The notes under the pieces are model-generated. The model worked only from the letters and a program-made list of their open reading frames with translations, ran no database searches and had not been told where the DNA came from. From positions 1,715,001 through 1,779,000 of the forward strand of contig NZ_JBBOUK010000001.1 of NCBI RefSeq assembly GCF_038006045.1: a stretch of 64,000 nt of DNA, given 5' to 3'. The DNA is from Exiguobacterium sp. FSL W8-0210 (GTDB taxonomy: Bacteria > Bacillota > Bacilli > Exiguobacteriales > Exiguobacteriaceae). Of the stretch, positions 7,202-63,541 are shown one piece after another; the first letter of the stretch is position 1, and the number at the start of each line of letters is the position of its first letter. A program made the position numbers and the translations under genes.

Positions 7202-7209
7202 TTTCTTTT

Positions 7210-7238
7210 AGACCCTGCTCACGCAGGGTCTTTTTTTG
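7210..7238 (+). terminator. Terminator of csp
   Basis: AGACCCTGC-TCAC-GCAGGGTCT is a perfect 9-bp stem with a tetraloop, followed by T residues. Confidence 0.92.
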
Positions 7239-37071: not shown

Positions 37072-37264
37072 ATGATCACCTTCTCTTACCTGAAAAATCG
37101 GAATAGAGATGTTCCGTTCATATAGCGTACAATGTATTTTAATCGCTAAATATTCGTTTTCGAATATTCCGAATTTAATATACAAATTGTAATCAAATTG
37201 TGATAGTAAGATTTTTAGAAACTGCTTTTTTCGTTGATACCAAGACATATTTAAATCGCAAACT

Positions 37265-48949: not shown

Positions 48950-49086
48950 AGTAGCACTCTCCTTGCCTTCTTAATTTTCTGTATATTCAGTTAAATTATA
49001 CTTTACACCCTTTTATGTTTATTCGCTACTATGCATAATCTCCATTTTATTTAAGCTTCAAAGGTATAATTACCATATATCAACAT

Positions 49087-49100
49087 TGATAACGCTTACA
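49087..49100 (+). promoter_or_regulatory. cre-like CcpA site
   Basis: TGATAACGCTTACA fits the cre consensus at the fixed TG, CG and CA positions. It lies between the divergent gltB and substrate-binding-protein promoters, so it could act on either. Confidence 0.5.
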
Positions 49101-49133
49101 TAAACTTGGATATTCATTCAATATTTTTTTTGG

Positions 49134-49162
49134 TTGAATTCTACACTTTGTGCGCGTATTAC
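49134..49162 (+). promoter_or_regulatory. Promoter of the orphan amino acid ABC genes
   Basis: TTGAAT (49134-49139) and TATTAC (49157-49162) are 17 bp apart, about 80 nt before the binding-protein ATG. Confidence 0.45.
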
Positions 49163-49243
49163 TTTGCCCGAACATATGATTCTGTGGTATTTTTAACTAT
49201 GAAAAGAGTTATTGATCATGGAAATAAAGAGAGGAATAATACG

Positions 49244-50086
49244 ATGAAAAAAACAATGCAATTTACGGGTCTCTTGATCGCAGGAAGCTCGATTTTATTA
49301 AGCGCATGTGGTCAGCAAGAGGAGAAGGCAACCGCATATGACAAGATTCAAAAAGAAGGAACGATTGTCGTCGCTACGGCTGGTACACTTTTTCCGACAT
49401 CTTATCATGAAGAGAAAAACAATAAGTTGACTGGATTCGACGTCGAAGTCGTCAAAGAAGTAGCAAAACGTCTTGATTTGAAAGTGAAATTCAAAGAGAT
49501 GTCATTCGACGGTATGTTGACAAGCGTCAATACAGGTCAAGTCGATCTTGCCGCTAACGACATTACGATCACCGAAGATCGTAAAGAAAAATTCGCGTTC
49601 TCAAAACCATATAAATATACGTATGGTACGGCAATCGTCCGTAAAAGTGATTTATCAGGCATCAAGTCTCTTGAAGACTTAAAAGGGAAAAAAGCTGCCG
49701 GAGAAGCTACAACGACGTATATGCAGATTGCTAAAAAATATGGTGCAAAAGAAGTCACGTACGATAACGCGACGAACGATCAATATCTACGAGATGTCTC
49801 AAATGGTCGAACAGACGTCATCTTGAATGATTACTACTTGCAAACACTCGCTGTCGATTTCTTCAAGGACTTCGATATTACGATTCATCCTGATATCGCT
49901 TATAATCCAAGTCAGGTTGGTTTAATCATGGATTTAGATAACAAGGAACTTCAATCCAACATTAACGAACAACTCGATAAAATGAAGGAAGATGGCACAT
50001 TAAAGGAAATTTCGAAGCAATTCTATGCCGGAAAAGATGTCTCCCAAATGCCTGACGTCAAAACGACGATTGTCGATGTGAACTAA
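49244..50086 (+). CDS. Amino acid ABC transporter substrate-binding lipoprotein
   Basis: 280 aa. The signal peptide ends in lipobox LLSAC. The SBP_bac_3 body shows KEGTIVVATAGTLFPTSYHE, FDVEVVKEVAKRLDL, VDLAANDITITEDRKEKFAFS and NGRTDVILNDYYLQ. It resembles the Bacillus YckB/TcyA group, so glutamine or cystine are possible ligands, not decided. The start is the ATG at 49244 with GAGAGGAAT upstream; 46 upstream codons lack a site. The permease follows after 2 nt. Confidence 0.88.
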   Translation: MKKTMQFTGLLIAGSSILLSACGQQEEKATAYDKIQKEGTIVVATAGTLFPTSYHEEKNNKLTGFDVEVVKEVAKRLDLKVKFKEMSFDGMLTSVNTGQVDLAANDITITEDRKEKFAFSKPYKYTYGTAIVRKSDLSGIKSLEDLKGKKAAGEATTTYMQIAKKYGAKEVTYDNATNDQYLRDVSNGRTDVILNDYYLQTLAVDFFKDFDITIHPDIAYNPSQVGLIMDLDNKELQSNINEQLDKMKEDGTLKEISKQFYAGKDVSQMPDVKTTIVDVN

Positions 50087-50088
50087 CG

Positions 50089-50766
50089 ATGTCATCGATT
50101 GATTGGCGGTCCGTCTTCAATCCTGAATTGGCGGTCGATTCGTTTCCATATATTTTAAGTGGACTTGGACAAACATTATGGATTTCTTTGCTCAGCATGG
50201 CGATTGGTCTTGGAATTGGGTTAATTCTTGCCCTTTGTCGTCTCTCTCATTTTCGAGTATTGCGTATTGGAGCGAGCGCCTACATCTCATTTATGCGTGG
50301 TGTACCCATCCTTGTGCTATTGTTCATGTTGTATTTCGGGCTGCCAGTCATCAATATTCAACTGAACGCGTTGACCGCTGCGATTACTGGTTTTAGTTTA
50401 AACAGTGCGGCATACATGGCAGAAATCATTCGTTCTTCCTTACTCTCGATTGATCGTGGGCAGGAAGAGGCAGCGGCGTCCCTCGGTTTATCTAGGTATC
50501 GGACGTTTGTTGGCATCATTTTGCCGCAAGCGATTCGAATTGCCATCCCACCGCTTTCGAACGTCTTGCTAGATCTTGTCAAAGCTTCGTCGCTTGCTGC
50601 CATGATTACTGTCCCTGAAATTTTTCAAAAGGCAAAAATCGTTGGTGGGCGTGAATTCGACTATATGACCGTCTATTTTGTCGTTGCGTTCATTTACTGG
50701 GGTATATGTTCATGTATCGCAGTCATCCAAGAGATTCTCGAACGTCGTTTTGCCCGGTATCTCTGA
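50089..50766 (+). CDS. Amino acid ABC transporter permease
   Basis: 225 aa with five membrane helices. It has the PAAT permease motifs FMRGVPILVLLFMLYFGLP and the EAA loop EEAAASLGLSRYRTFVGIILPQA. It is translationally adjacent to the binding protein. No ATPase gene follows; a hairpin terminator ends the unit. It must borrow an ATPase from elsewhere, perhaps the GlnQ-type gene in this window. Confidence 0.88.
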   Translation: MSSIDWRSVFNPELAVDSFPYILSGLGQTLWISLLSMAIGLGIGLILALCRLSHFRVLRIGASAYISFMRGVPILVLLFMLYFGLPVINIQLNALTAAITGFSLNSAAYMAEIIRSSLLSIDRGQEEAAASLGLSRYRTFVGIILPQAIRIAIPPLSNVLLDLVKASSLAAMITVPEIFQKAKIVGGREFDYMTVYFVVAFIYWGICSCIAVIQEILERRFARYL

Positions 50767-50786
50767 TTTATTATCTCCTATATGGT

Positions 50787-50832
50787 AATACAAACAGGCG
50801 ATGGGCATGATCCTTCGCCTGTTTGTATTTTC
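50787..50832. terminator. Bidirectional terminator
   Basis: AATACAAACAGGCGA (50787-50801) and TCGCCTGTTTGTATT (50814-50828) make a 15-bp stem between the permease and the convergent GGDEF-EAL gene. Confidence 0.9.
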
Positions 50833-50849
50833 AATTGTTTGATATCTGT

Positions 50850-52691
50850 TTAGCCTTCTCGACACATCGCTAAAAAATATTCTAATTGTTGCGGCTGAAG
50901 CGGTCGATAGAATAGATATCCTTGCAACGTATGACACCCCATCTGTTCGAGCAATGTTGCCTCTTCTTCAAGTTCGATTCCTTCTGCTACGATTGTCATA
51001 TTTAATCGTTTTCCTAATTGAATGATCGTCTCGATCATCGCTCGTTTCCTTTCAGAATGAATCGCTTCTTGAACGATTTCTTTTGGAATTTTTAATTGAT
51101 CGAATGGTAGTTCCACGAGTGGTTGCATGGATGAGAATCCAGTTCCAAAATCATCAAGAGCGATTCGAATGCCATACAAATGGAGTGCGTTTAATGTTTC
51201 GATAATTTGCTCGGTTCCTTCGATAAAGATATGTTCTGTCATCTCGATTTCAAGTAGGGATGGAGGAAAACCTGTTTGCTTTAATATAGTGAGCACTCGA
51301 TTCGTAAAATCAGCTTGTCGTAATTCCCACGGTGAAACATTAACCGAAATCGTCAGAGGTTCCTTCCCTTCCTCCAACCAAGCTTTTCCTTGAAGACAGG
51401 CTTGACGCATGACCCATCGCCCTAATGTCTCAATAAATCGTGTTCTTTCCGCGAGTGGAATGAACTCAACTGGTGGAACAAGACCGTATTCCGGATGATT
51501 CCAACGAATTAAAGCCTCTACACCTGTAATTTGACGCGTTCTCGCATTGACTTGAGGTTGAAATAAAATAAAGAAGTCTCGATCCAATTCTGCATCATAT
51601 AAATCGCGCGTTAACTGGAGTGCTCGCTTCCGTTCATTTTGTGTTGCTAAGTCTGTGATCGCATACGTGTTCTTTCGATTTGCTTTGGCTGTAAATAATG
51701 CAATCTCCGCGTCATTGATGACATGGTCCGTCGATTCATCATTAATATAGGAAACACCAATACTCGCAGTAACATTGATTTGCTTAAAGTCAATTTGTAC
51801 ACGTTCTGATACACTTGATAAAATATCGTCACAGAGGACTCGTGCATCATGATGATAAGGCGCATGAAGTAAAAAAGCACTACCGCTCGCTTTCGCAATC
51901 GTACAATCTGAAAAACGATTCATCAATCGTCGACCAATGATGTGTAATGAACGGTCACCAGTTCGGTAACCGAATGCATCATTTACTGTTTTGAAATCAT
52001 CCAAATCCACGAGACAAATCATATCGCCATCTTGTTTTTTCTTATCTACTTCAATGACAAACGAAGAGCGGTTTGGTAAACCTGTCACGGGATCCGTAAA
52101 TGCTTGTTCCTGTAAACGGGCTAAGTATTCAATATTTCGTTCAAGACGGGTAACATATTGATTATGGATCAGTAAACTAATGATCGTCGCAATCAAGATA
52201 AGTCCAATACGCGCGATGTGATCGGATACAAACATCGAAGTGTTTTCAAGTGATGGAGTTTGATACCAAATATAAAGAAGAGAAACCGTCGTGATGCTTG
52301 TTGCGTACAGTAGCATCGTTCGGTTGATGACGACTAAGGAAGCTAATATGAATAGAAGGGCACATGCCCAAACTGTCTGGACTCCCCTACCGATGAATGG
52401 ATGATAAATATATGGAATCAATAAAAAAACGCTAGACATCATATGTGGCTTTAGTCGGTCTGATAATGTACTTTTACCGATGAAGTATTGAACACTCCCA
52501 GCACTCGCAATGACAAGTGCACGTATCCAATCCTCTCCTTTCAAACCATAACTACTAAATGTATTGGCAACGATATATAAAACGGCACCACAACTCGTCA
52601 AAATAAAAATGATCATCCCGAACAATTGATAATTTGCCCGAATTTCTCGATGATATTGCTGACTATTGGAAGAACGTCGCTGTGTATTCAT
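50850..52691 (-). CDS. Membrane GGDEF-EAL protein, c-di-GMP phosphodiesterase with inactive GGDEF
   Basis: 613 aa. Residues about 20-180 form five or six membrane helices of unknown sensing type. The GGDEF domain begins FTDPVTGLPNRSSF, but its active loop is KASGSAFLL instead of GGDEF, so it should not make c-di-GMP. The EAL domain keeps the metal and catalytic residues: EALIRW, EMTEH, DDFGTGFSS, a Lys in QLKIPKEI and EGIE. This predicts c-di-GMP hydrolysis, perhaps regulated by GTP bound to the dead GGDEF. The ATG at 52691 follows GAGGGG. Confidence 0.9.
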   Translation of the reverse strand: MNTQRRSSNSQQYHREIRANYQLFGMIIFILTSCGAVLYIVANTFSSYGLKGEDWIRALVIASAGSVQYFIGKSTLSDRLKPHMMSSVFLLIPYIYHPFIGRGVQTVWACALLFILASLVVINRTMLLYATSITTVSLLYIWYQTPSLENTSMFVSDHIARIGLILIATIISLLIHNQYVTRLERNIEYLARLQEQAFTDPVTGLPNRSSFVIEVDKKKQDGDMICLVDLDDFKTVNDAFGYRTGDRSLHIIGRRLMNRFSDCTIAKASGSAFLLHAPYHHDARVLCDDILSSVSERVQIDFKQINVTASIGVSYINDESTDHVINDAEIALFTAKANRKNTYAITDLATQNERKRALQLTRDLYDAELDRDFFILFQPQVNARTRQITGVEALIRWNHPEYGLVPPVEFIPLAERTRFIETLGRWVMRQACLQGKAWLEEGKEPLTISVNVSPWELRQADFTNRVLTILKQTGFPPSLLEIEMTEHIFIEGTEQIIETLNALHLYGIRIALDDFGTGFSSMQPLVELPFDQLKIPKEIVQEAIHSERKRAMIETIIQLGKRLNMTIVAEGIELEEEATLLEQMGCHTLQGYLFYRPLQPQQLEYFLAMCREG

Positions 52692-52836
52692 CGCCATCCC
52701 CTCTTTCAAGTTCCTGTCGTTTATTTTCCTTATCAGAACCAAAATAAAACTTGAATTTTCTAAAAATAATAAAATAATGGGAAGTCATGATTTTAAGCAA
52801 AATGGGAATAGATAGGTATAGAAAGGAGCGATCACT

Positions 52837-53466
52837 ATGTCTCATTTACTATTCATCGAAGCAAACGATAGCACGCATCAAAAAAAAGGCATTAGTTCTG
52901 AATTAAACGATGCCTTTCTGAATGCTTATCGTGAAAATCATCCTGAGGACAAAATTACGCTTTTGAATTTATTCGAGGAACGTCTTCCCTTCTTTGATCT
53001 AAAACTTGCGAACGCGGCAGGGCGGCTATTTAAAGGGGAAGAATTAACTGGAGATGATGCGACTCATGCACAACGGCTTCAAGAATATTTAAACGGATTC
53101 TTAGATGCCGATAAAGTTGTCTTTTCATTTCCGATGTGGAACTTAACGGTTCCGGCACCGCTTCACAATTACATGGATTATCTCGCCCAGGCTGGTCAAA
53201 CGTTTCGTTATACAGCCGAAGGTTCGATCGGACTTGTTGAAGACAAACAAGTGCTGTTGATTCATTCACGCGGTGGTGATTACTCGACAAAAGAGAAAGC
53301 CCCAAGTGAACACGCGGTTCGCTATATGTTGAACTTGTTAGCATTCTTTGGGATCAATGATGTATCAACTGTCATTTTAGAAGGACATCAGCAATACCCA
53401 GATCGTGCATCTGAATTGATCGAACAAGCGCTTCAAGAGTGCCGACAATTCGGTCGTTCGTTTTAA
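52837..53466 (+). CDS. azoR: FMN-dependent NADH-azoreductase
   Basis: 209 aa, flavodoxin-like. FPMWNLTVPAPLHNYMD is the FMN-binding signature, and HSRGGDYS and EGHQQYP match the family. It is a FMN-dependent quinone and azo-compound reductase, often linked to electrophile stress. AAAGGAG precedes the ATG. Its last bases overlap the stop of the convergent PlcR-like gene by 4 nt with no terminator between. Confidence 0.9.
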   Translation: MSHLLFIEANDSTHQKKGISSELNDAFLNAYRENHPEDKITLLNLFEERLPFFDLKLANAAGRLFKGEELTGDDATHAQRLQEYLNGFLDADKVVFSFPMWNLTVPAPLHNYMDYLAQAGQTFRYTAEGSIGLVEDKQVLLIHSRGGDYSTKEKAPSEHAVRYMLNLLAFFGINDVSTVILEGHQQYPDRASELIEQALQECRQFGRSF

Positions 53467-54338
53467 ATTGGGAATAGAACATACTCTGCATATTCTTCCA
53501 GAAGACGTTTTTCATGAATCGGCATATCAAATGCACAAAATAAGGAATAGGCCATCGTAAAATCACGCTGGATATCTGAGAGATCACCATTTAATTGCTG
53601 CTTAAAGTATCCCCTTTGAAAGTAAAAGTGACCTAAGAAATGACCGTCTTCCAATTGAAGACTCTCCTGAATACCTTGTTCGGTGATTTTTAGACCAGCA
53701 AGGTATTTTTTTTGCAGTGAAAGTTGTTGTCCATAGTTATATAAAATCTTGATTCGAACTTTTTTTAATTCGATCGTTTCGTATTTTGCTTGAATCAAAT
53801 TCTGAAAAAGATCATCCGCTAATTCAAAGTCACCGTGTTCGACATACAGATTCGCCATCCCCATCTGAATCCGTAGATACAAGGTAGCTGATTCAAACCA
53901 GAGTTGTTCTTTATTTAGTAACCGTTCGAGCGATTGAACAGCTTTTAAGTAATGAATTTGACCACTTCTTTCCTGCACAATGATTTGATAATATCTTGCT
54001 AAATTACGTACCTGTTCATATTCAGTTGTAGACAGTACGTGTTCGCTCAATTTCAGAGCATCTACATATTTATTAGTACGTAACAAGTCCGCTAATTGTT
54101 CATCATATGATTGAAAGACATCACTTCGTAAATGATCTTGAAACAACATCGATAATGGTACTTTCAGCCGTTTTGCCACTTGTTGGAGTAAATCAATGGT
54201 AGGTGAATTTTTACCGTTTTCGACTTTACTAATTTCAGCTTGGCTACAGATGCCTTCACATAATTCTGCTTGTGTGATCTTTTTTTCTTTTCGAAGTCGC
54301 TTGATTTCATAGCCAATGGAGACGGGTAAATGATTCAA
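53463..54338 (-). CDS. PlcR-type XRE/TPR regulator, copy 1 of 5
   Basis: 291 aa. The first about 65 residues form an XRE helix-turn-helix (IKRLRKEKKITQAELCEGICSQAEISKVENG), and the rest is all-helical, TPR-like, ending in the block LGHFYFQRGYFKQQ. This two-part design is that of PlcR/NprR/Rgg regulators (RRNPP), which bind short imported peptides, though no peptide gene is seen here. The TTG start at 54338 is six bases after AAAGGAG. It is the last of five tandem paralogues. Confidence 0.8.
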   Translation of the reverse strand: MNHLPVSIGYEIKRLRKEKKITQAELCEGICSQAEISKVENGKNSPTIDLLQQVAKRLKVPLSMLFQDHLRSDVFQSYDEQLADLLRTNKYVDALKLSEHVLSTTEYEQVRNLARYYQIIVQERSGQIHYLKAVQSLERLLNKEQLWFESATLYLRIQMGMANLYVEHGDFELADDLFQNLIQAKYETIELKKVRIKILYNYGQQLSLQKKYLAGLKITEQGIQESLQLEDGHFLGHFYFQRGYFKQQLNGDLSDIQRDFTMAYSLFCAFDMPIHEKRLLEEYAEYVLFPI

Positions 54339-54366
54339 ATTATACTCCTTTCTTTTACTTCCATGA

Positions 54367-55233
54367 TTACATTTGAAAGTAGAGAAACTGGTTTTTTCCT
54401 TTTAATACTAGCGCGGCATGATTTTCATTACCAAAAGCAGTAAAAAGAGAATAGGCGTAGGTAAACGCGTCACGAATATCACGTTCTGCGTAACTCAATT
54501 CTTCATAGAAACATCCCTTTTGATAAAAGAAGTGTCCTAACATCGCTGTATCTTTTCGCTCAACGGATAAGGCGATTCCTTTTTCAGTAATCTCTAACCC
54601 TGTTACAAAATCATTTTGAAAATAGAGCTGTTGCGCATGATTATATAAAATTTTACATTGTAACTTTTTCAGCGTATCCGTCGAGTAATCATAGGTTAGT
54701 AATTCTTGATAAATTTTTCTCGCGTACGGATACTGACTGTTTAAATAATAATAGTTTGCAACAGACATCCGGATACGTAAATAAAGAACAGGGTACTCTG
54801 TTTCCATTTGTTGTTCATCCGATAACCGAAGCAACTGTGAGATACATGTTCGATAATCGATATCTTTTTTCCCTTCGCGAGCGACCCATTCAAAATAACG
54901 AATCAATAACTGAACGGAAGGAGGAAGACTAGTTGGTAAACATCTCATGAAATCAAGCATCTCATCATAACGACGTTGTCTAGAAAAGTCCGCTAGTTGT
55001 ACCTCATAGCGCTGAAATAGTTTTACTTCATTTGAATCGATGAAAATCTGATCCATTGAAATATGTAACTTTTGAGACAAACGCTGAACAAGATCAATTG
55101 TTGGTATAGTTTTCCCGTTTTCAATCTTACTTAATTCAGCTTGACTGCATACATCCTTCGCTAATTCTTTTTGTGTCAACTTCCTCTCGATCCGTAGTTG
55201 TTTGATCTGTTTACCAAATGATTCAATACGCAA
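54367..55233 (-). CDS. PlcR-type XRE/TPR regulator, copy 2 of 5
   Basis: 288 aa. HTH IKQLRIERKLTQKELAKDVCSQAELSKIENG, then helical repeats with LGHFFYQKGCFYEELS near the C-terminus. It shares the CSQAEL/ISK(I/V)ENG core with the other four copies, indicating tandem duplication. The TTG start at 55233 has GAGGAG just upstream; 28 nt separate it from copy 1. Target genes are unknown. Confidence 0.8.
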   Translation of the reverse strand: MRIESFGKQIKQLRIERKLTQKELAKDVCSQAELSKIENGKTIPTIDLVQRLSQKLHISMDQIFIDSNEVKLFQRYEVQLADFSRQRRYDEMLDFMRCLPTSLPPSVQLLIRYFEWVAREGKKDIDYRTCISQLLRLSDEQQMETEYPVLYLRIRMSVANYYYLNSQYPYARKIYQELLTYDYSTDTLKKLQCKILYNHAQQLYFQNDFVTGLEITEKGIALSVERKDTAMLGHFFYQKGCFYEELSYAERDIRDAFTYAYSLFTAFGNENHAALVLKGKNQFLYFQM

Positions 55234-55269
55234 CGTTTCTCCTCTTTTCTCGTTTGTTAAGCAATGACC

Positions 55270-56151
55270 TCATTCAGGCATAGACTGCAAAAAAGAACGT
55301 TTCACCTCTAGAACGATGTCAGCATATTGTTTCATCTGAAAGGCAGAGAATAATTCGTAGGCCATCGTATAATCATGTTTCGTCTGCAAGATATCTACAC
55401 CCATTCGCTCATGAAATTCACCACGTTGATAATAGAAGTGCGCTAAATAGGATGTCTGTTTCAATTTTCGACTGAGCAGTATCCCTTCCTCGATGATACG
55501 AAGTCCCTTTTCTGACTGATTAACTTTATATAATAATTTCGCATAATTATAAAGAATCTTAAGTCGTTCTTCTTTTAAACCGCTAATTTCTGTCGTGAAC
55601 TGTAATACGTCAGTATATATTTTTTCTGCTTGTTGATACTGTTCGCACTCCGCATATAAAATGGATAGTGCCATCTTGACTCGAAAGTAAAGAATTGGAT
55701 CCTGCACCTGTAAACCTTCTTGATCGATCAATCGTGCAAATAAGACTGAGGTCGTTCGATAGTCAACGTGCTGTTGCCGATAGGCGATCACGATTTCATA
55801 GTATCTCATTATTCGCCTTACTTCGTCAGAAGATCGACTGGATGAGACTTGTTTCATTACACGAAGGCATTTATCAAATTTATTTTCTCGTACTAGCTTA
55901 CGAAGTGCTTGGTCAAGAATACGAGCTTGTTCCAAACGATGTTCAGCACCATCTTTAACGAGTTCGGATATAGGAACACAAAGCTTTATAGCAAGTTGCT
56001 GTAATAATTCAACGGTCGGCATTACCTTACCGTTTTCAATTTTACTAATTTCAGCCTGACTACAGATCCCTGTACTAATGTCTTTTTGTGATACGTTGTT
56101 CAAACGTCGATAAAATTTCAATGTCTCCCCAATTGGATGTACGTTTTTCAT
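55270..56151 (-). CDS. PlcR-type XRE/TPR regulator, copy 3 of 5
   Basis: 293 aa. HTH LKFYRRLNNVSQKDISTGICSQAEISKIENG and C-terminal LAHFYYQRGEFHERMG. The ATG at 56151 follows AGAGGTG; the longer frame starts with a GTG overlapping that site. It lies 36 nt before copy 2 and is separated from copy 4 by a terminator, so it probably begins a new transcript covering copies 3-2-1. Confidence 0.8.
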   Translation of the reverse strand: MKNVHPIGETLKFYRRLNNVSQKDISTGICSQAEISKIENGKVMPTVELLQQLAIKLCVPISELVKDGAEHRLEQARILDQALRKLVRENKFDKCLRVMKQVSSSRSSDEVRRIMRYYEIVIAYRQQHVDYRTTSVLFARLIDQEGLQVQDPILYFRVKMALSILYAECEQYQQAEKIYTDVLQFTTEISGLKEERLKILYNYAKLLYKVNQSEKGLRIIEEGILLSRKLKQTSYLAHFYYQRGEFHERMGVDILQTKHDYTMAYELFSAFQMKQYADIVLEVKRSFLQSMPE

Positions 56152-56189
56152 CTTATCACCTCTCACTACTCATTTGATTGCACTTTTAA

Positions 56190-56220
56190 TAAAAAAACCT
56201 TCTTGTTTGGCAAGAAGGTT
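56190..56220 (-). terminator. Terminator within the regulator array
   Basis: On the minus strand AACCTTCTTG-CCAAA-CAAGAAGGTT is a 10-bp stem with seven T residues after it. It follows copy 4 and divides the array into two transcription units. Confidence 0.88.
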
Positions 56221-56234
56221 ACGCATCCTATTTA

Positions 56235-57125
56235 TCACTTCTCAAAGGTAAATAACATATACTTTTCCTTCATGCGAAGAATCATCTGTTTTCGAACGTC
56301 GTGCTCAAACGCGTGAAACAATGTATAGGCGACGGAATACTGTTTTTGAAGTGACATCTCATCTTCACCTGACTGTTCGTGATAGTGCGCGAGTTGATAG
56401 TAAAAATGTCCAAATAAAAATGTATGATTATGCAGCAAACATAGTTTATATCCTTTCTTAGCGATGGCGATACTGTCCTCAGACTTTTCTTGGTATTCAA
56501 GAATCTGACAATGATTAAAATAAATTTTCAGTAACGCATTCAGATGGGCAGTCGACTGGAGCGCTTCAATTTCTTTTTCCAATTCCTGATATACGGATTC
56601 CGTTAAATGAAATAGATCCTGTTCTGAATACATATTTGCAATCGCCATTTTGATTCGAATGAACAATTGAATGGAATGCGACCACACTTCTTTTTCATTC
56701 AACAAGTTGCTGAGTAGGCTCGCAGCTGTTCGAAAGTCAATCCGATTTTGTTTTAGATCAATGATCGTTTTAATGTAACTTTTTAAAATATCGACTTCAG
56801 TGATCATATTTTTTTCTTGCTGATTAATTCGCTCCATTGCTTCTTCGTACTTCTCTTCTCGAAGCAAATCGGATAAGAATTGATCAATTTGAAAAAATTG
56901 TTCTTCATCCGTATGTTCTTGAAATAATAAAGAAATGGGCACCTTTAACCTTTTGGAAATTTGTTGCAACAAATCGACAGTCGGTGAATTTAAGCCGTTT
57001 TCGATTTTACTGATTTCAGCTTGGCTACAAATATCTTCACATAGTTCATTTTGTGTCATCTGCTTCTCAATTCGCAGTTGTTTGATTTTTGTACCAATCG
57101 ATGAAGTTAATGCAGTGATCTCCAT
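56235..57125 (-). CDS. PlcR-type XRE/TPR regulator, copy 4 of 5
   Basis: 296 aa. HTH IKQLRIEKQMTQNELCEDICSQAEISKIENG and C-terminal FGHFYYQLAHYHEQSG. Its middle is more diverged from the other copies (EEKYEEAMERINQQEKN). The ribosome binding site is weak (AAGTGAGTGAG in the tail of copy 5), suggesting translation coupled to copy 5, which ends 7 nt before. It ends in a terminator. Confidence 0.8.
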   Translation of the reverse strand: MEITALTSSIGTKIKQLRIEKQMTQNELCEDICSQAEISKIENGLNSPTVDLLQQISKRLKVPISLLFQEHTDEEQFFQIDQFLSDLLREEKYEEAMERINQQEKNMITEVDILKSYIKTIIDLKQNRIDFRTAASLLSNLLNEKEVWSHSIQLFIRIKMAIANMYSEQDLFHLTESVYQELEKEIEALQSTAHLNALLKIYFNHCQILEYQEKSEDSIAIAKKGYKLCLLHNHTFLFGHFYYQLAHYHEQSGEDEMSLQKQYSVAYTLFHAFEHDVRKQMILRMKEKYMLFTFEK

Positions 57126-57132
57126 CGTTTAC

Positions 57133-58020
57133 TCACTCACTTTCATTAAGCGGAAATAAGAGATGTTCGGAAAAATACGTTTCAAGGATTTTTAAATAAG
57201 AGTGATTCTGAGTCGCAATAAAAAAGGAATAGGCGGTTGTATAGGCTTCCGTTGTATCTCGTTCCGATGCTTTTAACGCCTCTAACAAAATGCCTTTTTG
57301 AAAATAAAACTGTCCAAGATACGTTAAATCTTGCAATTGTTTCGTTTCTTTAATTACCTGCTCAACTTTCTGCAACCCTTCTTCGAATCGTTCAAACTCT
57401 ACTAAGTTACGAATGAAATTATACATGATCTTCATTCGAATTTTTTTATATTCTCTCGTTTGATAAGGCAACTCTAATAATGCCTTGTAGATTTGATGAG
57501 CACGATTATATTCTTCATGGTTCGTATAAAGTACCGCTATCACCATCTGAATTCGTGTATAAAGTAAAAATGATTTTTCTTCCACCCGTTCCTCACTGAC
57601 AACTTGCAACAAGGACGCAATACAGGTCCGAAAATCAACATTTCCTCTTTCATATTCAAGTAATTCTTGATGATAACGAATTAAAATTTGAGTTTCGACA
57701 GCGTTTTTTGATTTTTCATATAACATTAAGTCCTTTGCCATGTCTGAATATGTTTTTTCGCGTAAATGACGAATCATTCGTTGATCAATTTCGTTTAACT
57801 TATGTGACACGATTTCATCTTCAAAAAACAATGAAATCGGAATGCGCAGTCTTCGACAAATTTGCTGTAGTAAATCAATCGTCGGAGAATTTCGACCATT
57901 TTCGATTTTGCTGATCTCAGCCTGACTACAAATTCCTTCACAAAGTGCTTTTTGTGTCATTCCTTGTTTTTTTCGTTCTTGCTTGATCTTATCGCCAACA
58001 GAATGAATGACTGGATGCAT
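57133..58020 (-). CDS. PlcR-type XRE/TPR regulator, copy 5 of 5
   Basis: 295 aa. HTH IKQERKKQGMTQKALCEGICSQAEISKIENG and C-terminal LGQFYFQKGILLEALK. The ATG at 58020 is eight bases after GAGGAG; an in-frame GTG upstream overlaps it. It is the first gene of the array, 35 nt after the tRNA terminator. As in the others the C-terminal two-thirds is helical repeat, the expected peptide-binding part. Confidence 0.8.
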   Translation of the reverse strand: MHPVIHSVGDKIKQERKKQGMTQKALCEGICSQAEISKIENGRNSPTIDLLQQICRRLRIPISLFFEDEIVSHKLNEIDQRMIRHLREKTYSDMAKDLMLYEKSKNAVETQILIRYHQELLEYERGNVDFRTCIASLLQVVSEERVEEKSFLLYTRIQMVIAVLYTNHEEYNRAHQIYKALLELPYQTREYKKIRMKIMYNFIRNLVEFERFEEGLQKVEQVIKETKQLQDLTYLGQFYFQKGILLEALKASERDTTEAYTTAYSFFIATQNHSYLKILETYFSEHLLFPLNESE

Positions 58021-58055
58021 GAAGTTCACTCCTCAATCAAAGATGAATCCATCAT

Positions 58056-58101
58056 AAAAAAAGTCTTTCGTTTCAAGTATATATCACTTGAGACGAAAGA
58101 C
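58056..58101 (-). terminator. Terminator after the tRNA
   Basis: On the minus strand GTCTTTCGTCTCAAGT and ACTTGAAACGAAAGAC (one mismatch) with loop GATATAT and seven T residues, just past the tRNA. Confidence 0.88.
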
Positions 58102-58108
58102 GCGTGTA

Positions 58109-58179
58109 TGCTTCCGGCGAGAATCGAACTCGCACTGCAGCATTACCATTGCTGAGGTCTGCCATTAACCTACGGAAGC
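58109..58179 (-). tRNA. tRNA-Thr (anticodon GGT), unusual 71-nt body
   Basis: 71 nt without encoded CCA. Acceptor GCTTCCG/CGGAAGC with discriminator A, anticodon arm CAGCA-ATGGTAA-TGCTG (anticodon GGT, threonine ACC/ACU codons) and T arm GCGAG-TTCGATT-CTCGC are all well paired. The D arm is short (TAGGTTAATGGCAGACC). G1-C72, C2-G71, G35 and U36 are the threonyl identity elements I know. The D arm resembles that of Bacillus tRNA-Gly(UCC) more than usual tRNA-Thr, as far as I recall both. Confidence 0.85.
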
Positions 58180-58196
58180 TTGTAAAATCTGTTTCT

Positions 58197-58225
58197 AGTA
58201 TAACTTATAAAAAAAGACAAGACAA
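58197..58225 (-). promoter_or_regulatory. Promoter of tRNA-Thr
   Basis: On the minus strand TTGTCT (58225-58220) and TATACT (58202-58197) are 17 bp apart, about 18 bp before the tRNA. It overlaps the terminator of the upstream small gene. Confidence 0.65.
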
Positions 58226-58258
58226 GAAGTCGACGTGATTTCCACGCAACTCCTTGTT
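58209..58258 (-). terminator. Terminator of the 65-aa gene
   Basis: On the minus strand ACAAGGAGTTGCGTG and CACGTCGACTTCTTGT form a stem with one bulge and G-T pairs, followed by a short run and TTTTTTT. Confidence 0.7.
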
Positions 58259-58264
58259 ACTTTT

Positions 58265-58462
58265 TTACAGTGTCGTTTTTGTTAATGAATTATCATAGAC
58301 GACTAAAACCGAATAATGTTCATCCGCTTTAGACGCGACGAATGTTGAAAACTTCAACGTAATGATGGCGTTTGATCCAACACCATTGTTCTCAAAAAAT
58401 TCGTTCAATCGTTCTTCTAATTCTTCAGGCGTTCGCCCGACAACTACTTTAGAATGTAACAT
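58265..58462 (-). CDS. Small conserved-type protein, unknown
   Basis: 65 aa: MLHSKVVVGRTPEELEERL..., then NAIITLKFSTFVASKADEHYSVLVVYDN. The beta-strand/helix/strand layout resembles small sporulation-associated Cse60-like proteins, but this is a loose match by eye. The ATG at 58462 is eight bases after GGAG. It is monocistronic. Confidence 0.6.
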   Translation of the reverse strand: MLHSKVVVGRTPEELEERLNEFFENNGVGSNAIITLKFSTFVASKADEHYSVLVVYDNSLTKTTL

Positions 58463-58618
58463 GATCATCACTCCGTTCTGTTATGGTAGGTTCGAGTTAA
58501 ATAATTGCCTGATCGAATAAATGTTAAACCTTTTATTTTCCGACTTGCTCCTTCCTCTCTTTATCCGCTATGGTGAAATGGAGTAGTTTAACTTAAAAAG
58601 AATAGGAAGTGAAGTCTG

Positions 58619-59794
58619 ATGGAACAGATTAATTTCGATGAAACGATTGAGAAACGAAATACAGGATCCGTCAAATGGGACGGACTTCATTCACTTTATG
58701 GATCCGATGAGCTGATTCCGATGTGGGTCGCCGACATGGATGTCCGTCCACCGCATCATCTCACAGAACGATTGACAAGACGTGCTGCTACAGGTCATTT
58801 CGGTTACTCGATGTTTGAAGACGAAGCAAAACGAGCGATTCAGCATTGGTTTCAAAAGCGGTATGACGTATCAATCACTACTGATTCCATTCTTTATTCA
58901 AGCGGTGTCGTTCCTGGACTTGCGCATACTGTCCTAGCATTGACTGAACCAAGTGGTGAAATCATCATCCAAACACCGGTCTATCCTCCATTTCATCAAA
59001 TCATTCAGTCTAATCAACGACAACTCATTGAAAGTCCGCTTCTTTTAGACAGTGAGACGTACCAGACCGACTTTCCACTTCTCGAACGACAAATGCGAAC
59101 AGCACGTATGATGATTCTCTGTAGCCCGCATAATCCAAGCGGTAAAGTCTATCCGAGAGAAGAATTACAACAAATCGTCGAACTCGCGAAGCAATATGAT
59201 GTTTATCTTGTATCCGATGAGATTCATGCGGACCTCGTCTATACAGGTTCCGTGCACACGCCTATTCTTGGTTTGGATTATGAAAAACTCATTTTAGTAA
59301 GTGCACCATCCAAAACGTTCAATATTCCGGGTCTCTATGCGTCTTATCTGATCGTACCTGACATCTCGATTCGTCAACAGATCGAGCGTATCCAGCAGCG
59401 TCATTTCGTTCACCCGAATGCATTAGCTTCAACTGCTATTACAGCAGCGTATGGTGATGTTGCGAGTGAGCAATGGCTTTCACAATTACTTGTGTATTTA
59501 GAAGGAAATCGTGACCATGCCATCCGACGGTTTCGCCAAGAGATGCCAAAATTAGACGTCGTCATTCCAGAAGCAACTTTCCTGTTGTGGATCGACTTCA
59601 AAGCACTCGAGCTAGATAGTAAAACACGAGCAGATTGGCTCGTCAAGGAGGCAAAAATCGCTCTAACGCACGGTTCTTCGTTCGGATCTGGTGGCGAAAC
59701 GTTTGAACGTTTAAACATCGGCTGTCCTCGTGCTCAATTAGATCAGGCAATAGACCGTTTAAGCGCCGCATACCAACGGTTTTGGACCAATTAA
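58619..59794 (+). CDS. patB: MalY/PatB-type aminotransferase, cystathionine beta-lyase
   Basis: 391 aa, a fold type I PLP enzyme. The N-terminal PMWVADMDV and the PLP-lysine region SAPSKTFNIPGL are MalY/PatB signatures, as is LCSPHNPSGKVYPREEL. It cleaves C-S bonds of cystathionine and related thiols; PatB in Bacillus releases homocysteine. It is not next to other methionine genes. GGAAGTGAAG precedes the ATG. If EgtB uses cysteine or gamma-glutamylcysteine, such C-S lyases are also candidates for the last ergothioneine step (inference). Confidence 0.88.
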   Translation: MEQINFDETIEKRNTGSVKWDGLHSLYGSDELIPMWVADMDVRPPHHLTERLTRRAATGHFGYSMFEDEAKRAIQHWFQKRYDVSITTDSILYSSGVVPGLAHTVLALTEPSGEIIIQTPVYPPFHQIIQSNQRQLIESPLLLDSETYQTDFPLLERQMRTARMMILCSPHNPSGKVYPREELQQIVELAKQYDVYLVSDEIHADLVYTGSVHTPILGLDYEKLILVSAPSKTFNIPGLYASYLIVPDISIRQQIERIQQRHFVHPNALASTAITAAYGDVASEQWLSQLLVYLEGNRDHAIRRFRQEMPKLDVVIPEATFLLWIDFKALELDSKTRADWLVKEAKIALTHGSSFGSGGETFERLNIGCPRAQLDQAIDRLSAAYQRFWTN

Positions 59795-59800
59795 CATCAC

Positions 59801-59838
59801 ATAAATGATCCTAATTTATTGGGATCATTTATTTTTTA
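59801..59838 (+). terminator. Terminator of patB
   Basis: ATAAATGATCC and GGGATCATTTAT frame a short loop, and TTTTTT follows. Confidence 0.8.
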
Positions 59839-59936
59839 TTCAATCATTCTGAATATTTCAAATTGATGAACTTCAATAGGGACTAAAACCGTCCCAATCC
59901 CTTAAGGCACTAGGCGTAGCGGCACTTTTCATGAAT

Positions 59937-59965
59937 TTGACGTGACTTGCAAAGTCGTTTTATCC
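59937..59965 (+). promoter_or_regulatory. Possible promoter of putP
   Basis: TTGACG (59937-59942) and TTATCC (59960-59965) are 17 bp apart, about 90 nt before putP. A hairpin GGGAC-TAAAACC-GTCCC lies further upstream (59879-59895). Confidence 0.4.
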
Positions 59966-60054
59966 CCTGTAAGGTGGGGAACATATCATTTGGCGAACAA
60001 GTCAATACATGCTTGATCGCTGAAAAAACTATTGCATTTGGAGGATTTAACTTT

Positions 60055-61527
60055 ATGACGCAAGAATGGATTTCGATCATCCTGTATCTTGTTCTCATGT
60101 TGGCAATCGGTTATTTTGCCTACAAGCGAACGACGAATACAGAAGATTACATGTTAGGCGGACGCGATCTCGGTCCAGGTGTCACAGCACTCTCTGCTGG
60201 TGCATCGGATATGAGTGGATGGATGCTCATGGGACTTCCCGGCGCCATGTATGCAACAGGTGTATCAGCCCTTTGGCTCGCACTTGGTTTATTGATTGGA
60301 TGTTACGTAAACTATATCGTACTCGCACCACGTTTCCGTCTCTATACGGAAATGGCAAACGACTCAATTACGATCCCTGATTTCTTAGAGAATCGCTTTA
60401 AAGACAAATCACGCGTGCTTCGTACCGTATCAGCACTCGTTATCATCATCTTCTTCACGTTCTACACATCAGCTGGAATCGTCTCAGGCGGAAAATTGTT
60501 CGTCAGCTCATTTGGATTTGATTACCACTATGGTATGCTCTTGACGATTGCGGTCGTAATCGCCTATACACTTTTCGGCGGTTTTCTCGCAGTTAGTTGG
60601 ACCGATTTCGTCCAGGGCTGTATCATGTTCATCGCACTCGTTCTTGTACCGATCGTCGCATTGACAGACGTCGGCGGAATCGATGGTGCGTACAACTACG
60701 CTGAAAAATTAGACCCTTCATTATTTGACCCATTCAAAGGGACAACAGTTCTTGGAATCATCGGATTCCTTGCTTGGGGACTTGGTTACTTCGGTCAACC
60801 ACACATCATCGTCCGCTTTATGGCGATTCGTTCTGTTAAAGATTTAAAAAGTGCCCGTCGCATCGGGATCGGTTGGATGTTCGTCTCTATCATCGGTGCG
60901 ATGATGACTGGTCTTGTCGGGATCGCTTATTTCGAAGGACAAGGCAATGGACTCGGTGATCCGGAAACAGTCTTCATCCGTTTCTCGGATGTCCTATTCC
61001 ACCCGTATATCACAGGATTCTTGATGGCTGCGATTCTTGCAGCGATCATGTCGACGATTTCATCACAATTGCTCGTTACTTCGAGTGCGTTGACAGAAGA
61101 TTTTTATAAGACGTTCTTGAAAAAAGACGCATCGGATAAAGAACTCGTCCTGACAGGTCGAATCGCCGTTCTTGTCGTTGCCGTCATCGCAAGTATTCTC
61201 GCGTGGAACCCATCAGCGACGATTCTTGCACTTGTCGGTTATGCATGGGCTGGATTCGGTTCTGCCTTTGGTCCGATCATCTTGCTTTCTCTCTACTGGA
61301 AACGGATGACGAAACAAGGTGCACTGGCTGGTATTATCTCAGGTGCCTTGACTGTCATCATCTGGGTTCAACTCGGACTTAGTACGACGCTTTATGAAAT
61401 GGTACCTGGATTCTTCACAAGCTTGATCTTTACGGTCGTTGTCAGCTTGATGACGAAACAACCGGTCAATGCCGTTCAGGAAACGTTTGAAGAGATGGAA
61501 GACGAATTAAAAGACGCAGTTCAATAA
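60055..61527 (+). CDS. putP: Sodium/proline symporter
   Basis: 490 aa, SSS family with about 13 membrane helices. Na+ and proline motifs include SAGASDMSGWMLMGLPGAMY, FGQPHIIVRFMAI and AAIMSTISSQLLVTSSALTEDFYK. It imports proline for osmoprotection or nutrition. The ATG at 60055 follows GGAGG by ten bases; the open frame upstream is leader. No proline dehydrogenase (putA) genes are adjacent. Confidence 0.93.
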   Translation: MTQEWISIILYLVLMLAIGYFAYKRTTNTEDYMLGGRDLGPGVTALSAGASDMSGWMLMGLPGAMYATGVSALWLALGLLIGCYVNYIVLAPRFRLYTEMANDSITIPDFLENRFKDKSRVLRTVSALVIIIFFTFYTSAGIVSGGKLFVSSFGFDYHYGMLLTIAVVIAYTLFGGFLAVSWTDFVQGCIMFIALVLVPIVALTDVGGIDGAYNYAEKLDPSLFDPFKGTTVLGIIGFLAWGLGYFGQPHIIVRFMAIRSVKDLKSARRIGIGWMFVSIIGAMMTGLVGIAYFEGQGNGLGDPETVFIRFSDVLFHPYITGFLMAAILAAIMSTISSQLLVTSSALTEDFYKTFLKKDASDKELVLTGRIAVLVVAVIASILAWNPSATILALVGYAWAGFGSAFGPIILLSLYWKRMTKQGALAGIISGALTVIIWVQLGLSTTLYEMVPGFFTSLIFTVVVSLMTKQPVNAVQETFEEMEDELKDAVQ

Positions 61528-61543
61528 TCAGCGAATAGCAAGT

Positions 61544-61579
61544 AAGACCTCTGCCGTATGATCGGCAGAGGTCTTTTTT
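61544..61579. terminator. Terminator of putP, also facing the methyltransferase gene
   Basis: AAGACCTCTGCC and GGCAGAGGTCTT (12 bp) with an 8-nt loop and TTTTTT, between convergent genes. Confidence 0.9.
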
Positions 61580-61582
61580 GAC

Positions 61583-62374
61583 TTACAGTTCAATCACGCC
61601 ATAATGCAACTTCGACGTCTTCCGCTTTGTTCGTTCGAACCCAAACCGTTCAAACAAGGGACTCTCATAATGTGCTTTTAAAACGATGCGCTGACGTGCC
61701 ACACGCTTCGCCTCCACCATCGCTTCCTCGGATAAGGCTTCATAATTCGCAAGCGTTCGTAAAGCATCGAGATGCGTCGATTCTTCGACGGTCTGTTCGA
61801 ACATGGGATCAAAGTAGATGACATCAAAGGAATTATCTGGACATTCTTTCAAATAGGTGAGATGGTGTTTGACTTTCACTTCAATTCGTCGCATCGCTTG
61901 ATTGATCGGTTCGTAGGATTCTTCCCATCGTTTTAATCCGTTCTTGACGACAAATGCTGTCTCAACCCGGCTTTCTAAGCCGGTGATCCGCCCTCGCTCT
62001 CCGATGGCATGACTCATGACGATGGCATCTGCTCCAAGACCAAGTGTGCAGTCAAGCACACGCATCCCTTCCGATAAGCGTCCGATTGTAACGAGAGGAT
62101 CGCCTCCTCCTGCATCAATTTGTTTGATACGAAACACCGCACTCGAAGGATGGAAAAAGAAAGATGTCGTCTCGCCTAGTGGATATAAATCAAGTCGCTG
62201 TTTATCGACGACAAGCACCGGTAATCCTGTCTCCTGTTGCAAGTGTTCTATGCTTTTTTTCTGACGCACGACGTAGATAAAATGTATCGTTTCATCCGCT
62301 AACAACTGCTTCACACGATGATGCACATCGTCAGTCGGACGAAGACATGTCGTCAGTCCAATGGTTGGTTTCAT
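61583..62374 (-). CDS. RsmJ-like class I SAM-dependent methyltransferase
   Basis: 263 aa. The SAM motif is LDCTLGLGADAIVMSH, followed by GLESR and the catalytic YFDPMFE (a D/NPPY-like loop). This matches the RsmJ/YpiP family: RsmJ methylates 16S rRNA G1516 in Gammaproteobacteria, while the Firmicute homologue has an unclear target. The ATG at 62374 follows GGAGG by eight bases. Confidence 0.83.
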   Translation of the reverse strand: MKPTIGLTTCLRPTDDVHHRVKQLLADETIHFIYVVRQKKSIEHLQQETGLPVLVVDKQRLDLYPLGETTSFFFHPSSAVFRIKQIDAGGGDPLVTIGRLSEGMRVLDCTLGLGADAIVMSHAIGERGRITGLESRVETAFVVKNGLKRWEESYEPINQAMRRIEVKVKHHLTYLKECPDNSFDVIYFDPMFEQTVEESTHLDALRTLANYEALSEEAMVEAKRVARQRIVLKAHYESPLFERFGFERTKRKTSKLHYGVIEL

Positions 62375-62389
62375 AATGTGTTCCTCCAT

Positions 62390-62421
62390 AAAAAAATAAG
62401 CTAGCCGGAGCTAGCTCATTT
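62390..62421 (-). terminator. Terminator of the coiled-coil gene
   Basis: On the minus strand AATGAGCTAGC-TCCG-GCTAGCTTATT (one G-T pair) with T residues after it. It overlaps the end of the 104-aa gene. Confidence 0.85.
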
Positions 62422-62730
62422 CTTTTTCTTCAATAATCCTTCGATATCTTCAATCAATGCTTTTTTCGAAATCAGGTCTTCTTGCTTTTCCTGTTCGACT
62501 TTTGCATCGACCGTCGTCCGCTTCATGAGTGCCTGAAGCGTCTCATCGATGCTTGACTTCAAATGATCGCGGTCTTCTTTATTAAGGGAAAGATCATGTT
62601 GAACTTCATCCCCTTGTTCATCTAATTGGCGTAAGCGTTCCGTCAATTGTTTCGCTTCACGATTCAAGTCCGAATACAATCGTTCGATTTGCTCTAGACG
62701 CAATTTGATTCCGTCACGTTCTGTGAACAC
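62416..62730 (-). CDS. Coiled-coil protein of unknown function
   Basis: 104 aa, almost entirely helical and highly charged with heptad-like spacing (RLEQIERLYSDLNREAKQLTERLRQLDEQ). It ends in a lysine tail. It is not recognised. The GTG start at 62730 has AAGGGG about nine bases upstream. It may be a scaffold or a partner protein. A terminator follows. Confidence 0.6.
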   Translation of the reverse strand: MFTERDGIKLRLEQIERLYSDLNREAKQLTERLRQLDEQGDEVQHDLSLNKEDRDHLKSSIDETLQALMKRTTVDAKVEQEKQEDLISKKALIEDIEGLLKKKK

Positions 62731-62934
62731 GTTTTCCAGCCCCTTCCAGTATGCAGTTGTCTACATCATTACTTTACCATATTCCGAGGTAATTAAAACA
62801 ATCACAAGATGATTACAGAATGACTTTTTTTAGATTTCTTCCTGCGGATTGATTCCAGTTAATTTTTGCAATTGCACGGAGGGTATCGCTATAATGTAAA
62901 CGAAGCATCAATTGGGATGAGGGAGGATTTTGTG

Positions 62935-63417
62935 ATGGAATTGAGACGTCGAACATTACGTCATGTCGATCAAGCTGAGTACGATCATTTCTTGAAGTAT
63001 GGCGAGCAAGCATATGGACTGACTCCGCAAGAAATCAAAGGGTATGACCATGAGCTTGGAGAAGAGCGGGCTTTTGATTCCGTCGAGCACAGTTATCCTG
63101 AAGATTATTACTTTGATATCGTTGAAGCGGATACGATCGTGGGGCGGGTTTTGCTCTTAAAAATGGGTCACTACTTCCAACTCGACTTCATGGTGTTTGA
63201 TCCCTATACGCGTCGGGGTCTAGCTACTCAAGCAGTTGCTGAAGCATTGACGTATTCCGGGGTACTAGATCGTCACGAAGTACGTGCGCGTGTCCTTGAA
63301 CAATCACCGCACGCTTCGTTTGCAAAACGCATTTTAGAAGCGAATGATTTTACATCGACAGAGAACTATTACGTCAAAGGAAGACGTCGTCGATACTCGC
63401 TGCAACGAATGGGCTAA
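62935..63417 (+). CDS. GNAT-family acetyltransferase
   Basis: 160 aa. The central FMVFDPYTRRGLATQAVAEAL is the acetyl-CoA P-loop motif (R-x-x-G-x-A/G), followed by RVLEQSPHASFAKRILEANDF, with ASFAKRILEAN typical of the RimJ class. The N-terminal part (about 70 residues) is not like the upstream acetyltransferase. GGGAGG precedes the ATG at 62935. The substrate is unknown. A terminator follows. Confidence 0.75.
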   Translation: MELRRRTLRHVDQAEYDHFLKYGEQAYGLTPQEIKGYDHELGEERAFDSVEHSYPEDYYFDIVEADTIVGRVLLLKMGHYFQLDFMVFDPYTRRGLATQAVAEALTYSGVLDRHEVRARVLEQSPHASFAKRILEANDFTSTENYYVKGRRRRYSLQRMG

Positions 63418-63427
63418 AGACCGTCCG

Positions 63428-63456
63428 AAAGACCATGAAACTCATGGTCTTTTTTA
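63428..63456 (+). terminator. Terminator of the GNAT gene
   Basis: AAAGACCATG (63428-63437) and CATGGTCTTT make a stem with a 5-nt loop, followed by T residues. Confidence 0.85.
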
Positions 63457-63479
63457 ATGCCCTCATCGCTTCATCACCT

Positions 63480-63508
63480 TTGACAGTTGATCGATTTCAG
63501 CGTACAAT
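63480..63508 (+). promoter_or_regulatory. Sigma-A promoter of the YhhQ-like gene
   Basis: TTGACA (63480-63485) and TACAAT (63503-63508) with an exact 17-bp spacer. The leader is only about 30 nt, too short for a preQ1 riboswitch. Confidence 0.75.
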
Positions 63509-63541
63509 TTTCATTTGTATGAACAGAAAGGAGTACATCTC

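Follow-up and report, generated by a model that had tools for sequence, protein, structure and literature searches.

A tandem array of PlcR-type receptors without a neighboring peptide gene in Exiguobacterium, and an unlinked multi-copy propeptide as one candidate source of signals

The array in the window and across the genus

The DNA analyzed here (the window) is a stretch of 64,000 nucleotides (nt) from Exiguobacterium sp. FSL W8-0210 (contig NZ_JBBOUK010000001.1, positions 1,715,001 to 1,779,000), and its subject is a row of regulator genes bordered by tRNA-Thr(ggt) and azoR. As an earlier note on this DNA had described, five consecutive genes of 288 to 296 amino acids (aa) lie on the minus strand at positions 53463 to 58020, and all five open reading frames (ORFs) are intact (Table 1). 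The gaps are 7, 83, 36, and 28 nt in transcription order, the spacing given in that note, and the terminator found between the second and third genes supports its division of the row into two transcripts. Gene 1 begins approximately 40 nt past the hairpin that follows tRNA-Thr, and for this reason the array is likely expressed by read-through from the tRNA terminator. The AT-rich look of the array was also borne out, with G+C contents of 35 to 40% in its 1-kb steps compared with 37 to 51% in the other steps across positions 46000 to 64000. The nearest named record to gene 1, from Exiguobacterium sp. Leaf196, is 99% identical to it.

Table 1. Features of the window that concern the receptor array and its candidate operator
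Feature	Position	Strand	Basis or remark
tRNA-Thr(ggt), upstream border of array	58109-58179	-	Seen in 19/19 genomes
Hairpin and T run 3' of tRNA-Thr	58063-58101	-	-19.8 kcal/mol, z -5.2
Array gene 1 (module X, group OG1), PlcR-type receptor-regulator, 295 aa	57133-58020	-	ORF, Pfam, AlphaFold model
Array gene 2 (module X, group OG2), 296 aa	56235-57125	-	ORF, Pfam, tree
Intrinsic terminator, boundary of modules X and Y	56196-56220	-	10-bp stem; -12.3 kcal/mol, z -4.5
Array gene 3 (module Y, group OG4), 293 aa	55270-56151	-	ORF, Pfam, tree
Array gene 4 (module Y, group OG5), 288 aa, TTG start	54367-55233	-	ORF, Pfam, tree
Array gene 5 (module Y, group OG6), 291 aa, TTG start	53463-54338	-	ORF, Pfam, tree
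azoR (product presumably NADH-azoreductase-like), downstream border of array; convergent, overlaps last array stop	52837-53466	+	ORF
Perfect copy of TATTCG-N4-CGAATA, candidate operator	37151-37166		Second copy; perfect arms in 19/19 genomes
265-aa protein, candidate target gene	36274-37071	-	Starts 79 nt past the palindrome at 37151-37166

No ORF in the window matched the motif rule for PapR-like peptides. Four signal-like small ORFs were found in or just around the array, and the sole one with a ribosome-site-like stretch is antisense, inside gene 1. By motif rule, gap sizes, and small-ORF check, no propeptide gene was recognized beside the array receptors, in line with the earlier claim that the gaps hold none, and the array was therefore not classed as a complete PlcR-PapR system.

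Matches to the Pfam families HTH_3 and RNPP_C were found in all five proteins (RNPP_C E values of 3e-15 to 4e-29), and the helix-turn-helix (HTH) core CSQAE(I/L)SK(I/V)ENG that had been noticed is present in each. A shared C-terminal block was likewise found in all five, although in forms looser than the LGHFYxQxG first quoted (LGQFYFQKG, FGHFYYQLA, LAHFYYQRG, LGHFFYQKG, and LGHFYFQRG). A profile of the five proteins matched PlcR of Bacillus thuringiensis over the full length with an E value of 5e-47; Rgg and ComR were matched at 5e-6 to 7e-4, mainly over the HTH and into the beginning of the following domain, and PrgX was not among the matches listed. The array proteins are closer in sequence to PlcR than to Rgg or ComR. 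NprR is a receptor of approximately 400 aa with a longer tetratricopeptide repeat (TPR) part, a size that the array proteins, at 288 to 296 aa, do not reach. Structure prediction was performed for gene 1, one of the five (AlphaFold, 43-row alignment, mean predicted local distance difference test score of 90.1), and the predicted fold is a superhelix of TPR repeats, as had been expected of the C-terminal parts. The first five Foldseek matches of this model were PlcR structures (TM-score of approximately 0.6), and in VIA-align three PlcR entries had Z values of 22.0 to 23.2 (root mean square deviations of 7.9 to 9.6, 263 to 279 aligned residues), the next row, at a Z of 17.5, being a TPR protein of another kind. 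The array proteins are PlcR-type RNPP receptors, as the earlier note had supposed.

A search with gene 1 identified PlcR-type genes in 19 of 19 Exiguobacterium genomes, including that of the window. The array lies next to the same tRNA-Thr gene in every genome and next to azoR in 18; in the exception, G016, azoR is on a separate contig, and the contig ends at the break look like insertion sequence ends. The number of receptor ORFs per array ranges from one (G006) to six (G001 and G002, two of those in G002 being broken). In 18/19 genomes, two or more array genes follow one another, rather than the single gene with a neighboring peptide gene that the note had considered for close relatives. No array-type receptor was matched in 19 genomes of the sister genus at an E value of 1e-20; at 1e-15, one weak match each was found in 4 of the 13 genomes of that genus listed. 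In a class-wide sample of 299 genomes, Exiguobacterium included, with eight candidates scored per genome, 104 had a match, and the only other same-strand neighbors among the matches listed were a pair in G047, one copy of which contains a stop.

In a tree of 85 receptors, array groups OG1, OG3, and OG2 belong to the tRNA side (module X) and OG4, OG5, and OG6 to the azoR side (module Y), the two being divided in the window by the terminator. Members of the first species clade have module X alone (G003 and G012) or both modules, and those of the second have relatives of X only (G004, G005, G015, G016, and G018) or of Y only (G008, G009, G013, and G014). OG4 is missing in G007 and G010, and the single array gene of G006 was unplaced among the groups. 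Broken genes comprise OG3 and OG5 in G002, an OG5-like gene in G008, and OG3 with stops in G012; scraps of OG6 are present in G003 and G012, the latter agreeing with the window gene over 87/87 residues.

Such broken copies, found in four genomes (G002, G003, G008, and G012), would fit array genes that are ligand-independent or decaying paralogues. However, the ratio of nonsynonymous to synonymous substitution rates (dN/dS) was 0.04 to 0.23 in the 16 orthologous array gene pairs tested, pocket residues are kept (see below), and an array is present in all 19 genomes, which together make this reading very unlikely. The tested array pairs are under purifying selection; for comparison, two pairs of the peptide-linked receptor described below gave ratios of 0.03 and 0.04. 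Given the fixed location and the low dN/dS, the array was also rejected as mobile or random accessory DNA, and the accessory status proposed for it could not be upheld, although its gene content varies.

The unlinked plcR, its propeptide, and exchange of TPR parts

One further full-length PlcR-type gene is present in the window genome, approximately 864 kb from the array (L009:6643-7862). Convergent to it, and approximately 24 nt off, is an ORF of 106 aa that starts like a signal peptide and contains AIKGLPLEY four times and AIDGIPLEY once, five repeats in total. This convergent pair was readable in 17/19 genomes, being cut by a contig end in G007 and G013, and the propeptides of these 17 contain two to nine peptide copies, with nine in G015. 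A profile of 16 propeptides matched one locus per genome in 19/19, aside from split pieces, and a weak second match (E value of 0.05) occurred in G005. In the peptide core, xPxE precedes Y, F, or H, and the repeats are presumably secreted pheromones; the same core type is seen in PapR7 (ADLPFEF) and PapRa7 (CSIPYEY) (PMC3519770, section 5). Six peptide classes were distinguished by the residue after proline (L, A, P, F, Y, or T), G007 belonging to class L. Pfam matches of the propeptides (chitobiase, APC, and others) look like repeat artifacts and were set aside. This unlinked plcR of the window genome, with its multi-copy PapR-like propeptide, lends weight to the suggestion in the earlier note that the array responds to distant peptides; the array as the reader of that propeptide is a candidate only.

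In the window genome, homologues of the propeptide were limited to the known one at E values up to 10, and 5 of the 36 places with the codon pattern P(L/F)E(Y/F) are its own repeats. A single-copy PapR-like gene elsewhere in this genome was rejected, as none of the eight places where xPxE(F/Y/H/L) precedes a stop, four of which end in a true stop, ends a signal-peptide ORF. On its second contig, which is 110,633 bases long and may be a plasmid, G015 has another plcR, whose single-copy propeptide ends in ELPFEH (L072:3564-4588); in the tree this receptor groups with PlcR of B. thuringiensis, and both have long branches. The ordinary arrangement was seen outside the family in G306, where one plcR stands convergent to a 57-aa propeptide that ends in KLPFEF (L147:1061-2123), and this was the one locus of six outside PlcR-type loci at which the search rule found a PxE peptide.

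On the tree of linked-receptor TPR parts, the six peptide classes need five changes, the minimum, compared with 11 on the species tree and 11 on the HTH tree, which is weak because the HTH part is nearly invariant. Across 25-residue windows of the linked receptor (G006 excluded), mean identity is 93 to 98% over the first 50 residues in all kinds of pairs, and past residue 75 it is 32 to 66% in different-class pairs, both within and between species clades. The sister genomes G011 and G012 have flanking genes that are 99.5% identical and linked TPR parts that are 47% identical. By these comparisons, the TPR part of the linked plcR is exchanged between species along with the peptide class, and the HTH stays. 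This resembles the four pherotypes of PlcR-PapR, in which, according to passages of PMC7267880 and PMC6568020, the HTH is conserved and the binding part variable.

A similar pattern was found in the array. The array DNA of G014 and G015 is 97% identical from the tRNA side to approximately codon 57 of gene 1, beyond which HTH stretches alone align until azoR is reached at 97%; between the two genomes, the HTHs of gene 1 are 96% identical and its TPR parts are 32% identical. The pairs G013/G004 and G009/G005 have the same pattern at the protein level. As judged from the alignments, the array also exchanges TPR parts, with the HTHs kept.

Candidate operators and ligands of the array

The palindrome TATTCG-N4-CGAATA was found upstream of the propeptide gene in 17/17 chromosomal loci examined, and an exact copy of it is present in 19/19 genomes. 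The second copy, which lies within the window (Table 1), has a spacer of TTTT or TTAT and stands 77 to 80 nt ahead of a gene starting M(L/Q)NYKVNVY in 10 of the 11 genomes read, the exception being G006; two starts were corrected by one codon for these distances. A third palindrome, TATTCA-TATT-TGAATA, is also present in 19/19 genomes and in the window genome lies 61 nt before a candidate target encoding a 108-aa membrane-like protein (L121:1361-1764). This ORF follows the palindrome in 9 of 11 genomes read, another start having been chosen in the other two. Neither the 265-aa nor the 108-aa candidate target has a Pfam or NCBIfam match. The PlcR box has a similar 6-4-6 geometry, and the PlcR-type receptors may bind TATTCG-N4-CGAATA. 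Because loose matches in the window (n = 32) fall below the shuffle mean of 46, only conserved palindrome places were counted; the other places read in the window genome that have one or two mismatches (L119, L120, L122, L123, and L124) lie inside ORFs and were dropped.

Across 92 within-genome array pairs, the HTH was on average 60% identical and the TPR part 32%; between array and linked receptors (63 pairs), the means were 55% and 28%, respectively. The segment aligned to PlcR residues 27 to 42 is 69 to 88% identical among the five array proteins of the window, and CSQAEISKIE, which we take to be the recognition helix, is the same or has one conservative change across these five and the linked receptor. 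The TPR parts are divergent and could each suit another signal, as the earlier note had proposed. Pocket residues were compared in PlcR numbering for 62 array and 19 peptide-linked receptors; G002_a2, G002_a5, and shorter fragments were excluded as too short, and G012_a2 is in no group. Gln241 is invariant in both sets, as is Asn201, which we take to have a role in the PlcR pocket, in agreement with a docking passage on PlcRa. Position 87 is Arg in 60/62 array and 14/19 linked receptors. In passages of PMC6568020, PlcR Lys87 is proposed to bind the Glu of PapR, and Lys89, Gln237, and Tyr275 are reported contacts of this glutamate. Positions 89 and 275 vary among the array groups.

Our tentative first choice is that the array consists of orphan PlcR-type receptors that read PapR-family peptides made elsewhere, own or foreign, and share operators. 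Most likely, the TPR pocket of each protein would accommodate a short peptide imported by the cell, after which the protein would bind DNA through its HTH. The ligands would be xPxE(Y/F/H) peptides of the PapR family encoded away from the array. They could derive from the unlinked multi-copy propeptide of the same cell, but neighbors of other pherotypes are the likelier source. This second source is favored on balance because some sisters keep similar array receptors while their own peptide changes, the array TPR sets being 85% alike in both G001/G002 and G005/G015, compared with 40% and 51%, respectively, for the linked receptor. All array copies would share the TATTCG-N4-CGAATA operators with the peptide-linked PlcR, which would make the array a listening panel with many inputs and one output. 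Such a panel fits because the receptors have no neighboring peptide, near-identical DNA-reading segments, and different pockets.

Several observations weigh against this reading. No palindrome precedes the array genes, and the array TPR sets also change in the sister pairs G014/G015 (42%) and G011/G012 (60%); conversely, G010 and G017 share a peptide class and differ in the array (64%, versus 89% for the linked receptor). Position 159 of the pocket is Ser in 19/19 linked receptors and Met, Thr, or Leu in 62/62 array receptors, none of which has Asn or Ser there, and position 237 is Gln in 19/19 linked versus His in 56/62 array receptors. No array group has a pocket that resembles those of the linked receptors of any one peptide class. 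Since Asn201 and Gln241, and mostly Arg87, are kept and positions 159 and 237 are changed relative to all linked receptors, peptide binding by the array looks to be kept and the ligand may be of another class.

The main alternative is accordingly built on these pocket differences: the array receptors would sense a different class of peptides (from unrecognized propeptides encoded elsewhere in the genome, or nutrient or degradation peptides), outside the PapR-like circuit. This is possible, if somewhat doubtful. It would agree with the behavior of the array TPR parts, which do not track the cell's own peptide when near-duplicate genomes are removed. The partial correlation between array and linked-receptor divergence was 0.26 over 18 genomes (26 of 5,000 permutations as large) and 0.21 over 19 genomes (59/5,000), and it became 0.02 (2,147/5,000) without G006 and three near-duplicates, so fine covariation of the two was rejected. 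Against a different class stand the retained Asn201 and Gln241, Arg87 in 60/62 array receptors, and a DNA-reading segment that differs little from the one in the peptide-linked receptor.

Module Y was found in 8/8 class L (PLEY) genomes versus 3/10 others (Fisher P = 0.004) and was scored intact in 8/8 versus 1/10 (P = 0.0004), with G016 excluded and the PLEY genomes G007 and G010 counted as intact despite missing OG4. None of the four genomes with broken array genes is of class L, and the non-PLEY genomes G003 and G012 retain OG6 only as scraps. A correlated-traits test over 17 genomes gave a likelihood ratio of 8.96, matched by 0 of 100 simulations, with three of the four fitted rates at their bound. 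In independent contrasts, four to five of five agreed and none opposed (sign test P = 0.06 to 0.13); with module Y as the leading trait, four to five of six agreed and none opposed. That module Y follows the PLEY class is a suggestive lead from a trait picked after the data had been seen. It would favor an array that, at least in module Y, supplies extra receptors for the cell's own PLEY-type pheromone from approximately 864 kb away. This is unlikely, however, given the post hoc trait, the small number of contrasts, the bounded rates, an intact module Y in G001, which is not PLEY, the lack of OG4 in two PLEY genomes, array pockets unlike those of PLEY receptors, and the overall divergence of array and linked receptors, which is uncorrelated without the near-duplicates.

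The preferred reading of orphan receptors with shared operators could be extended to a two-locus pherotype system, comprising a multi-copy pheromone cassette with one receptor and, approximately 0.86 Mb away in the window genome, a modular panel of orphan receptors. This panel would exchange TPR parts by recombination, retain or lose modules depending on the pherotype, and direct all of its inputs to one set of operators. Such a system is rather unlikely; if it were true, cells could tell kin from other pherotypes.

Relation to known systems

The array shares receptor length, HTH and TPR architecture, and pocket Asn201 with PlcR-PapR of the Bacillus cereus group. In that group papR lies beside plcR, whereas the array has no papR and the papR-like gene of Exiguobacterium is unlinked, multi-copy, and convergent to another plcR. 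The AloR receptors of Paenibacillaceae are an expanded set of peptide receptors in one genome, organized as receptor-peptide pairs; the likeness lies in the many receptors per genome, and the Exiguobacterium row differs in being orphan and tandem. PlcRb and PlcRc of B. cereus ATCC 14579 are paralogues of PlcR that have no peptide gene associated with them (PMC3519770, section 5), but they form two separate loci, whereas the Exiguobacterium array is a tandem row with as many as six members and exchange of TPR parts. Multi-copy propeptides are described for AimR, NprR, Rap, and PlcR systems, with up to six copies and in 3/15 long PlcR propeptides (passages of PMC9765709), and Phr propeptides have up to eight copies (passages of PMC11343458). 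Compared with these, the Exiguobacterium propeptide reaches nine copies, occupies one locus in 19/19 genomes, and exchanges classes genus-wide.

In the literature searched, no paper joining PlcR, RRNPP, and Exiguobacterium was found. No mention of the genus was found in the main text of three RRNPP papers, PMC9765709 and PMC11343458 among them, and PMC3171730, which names both PlcR and Exiguobacterium, is in its available passages not on this subject. Orphan PlcR paralogues, PlcR pherotypes, and multi-copy propeptides are already known; an orphan array that is both tandem and modular and exchanges TPR parts was not found in the literature searched, nor was the genus-wide multi-copy PapR-like system that goes with it. 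Exiguobacterium, which is rarely linked to human infection (abstract of PMC5521131), offers six natural peptide classes, a matching receptor in which the part that reads the signal is exchanged between species, and a separate row of partnerless receptors whose DNA-reading segments are near-identical. The genus bears on the questions of what Gram-positive bacteria gain from having more than one type of signal and what role receptors without a partner peptide have.

Three further observations were made. A 418-aa regulator of NprR size, with an HTH related to that of the array proteins, lies at L010:6011-7267. An aminotransferase gene beside the array (window positions 58619 to 59794), presumably PatB-like, is 87 to 88% identical in five close relatives, in which azoR is 90 to 99% identical, suggesting recombination of its own. 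At window positions 6882 to 7237, an Rfam match to the cspA thermoregulator RNA was found.

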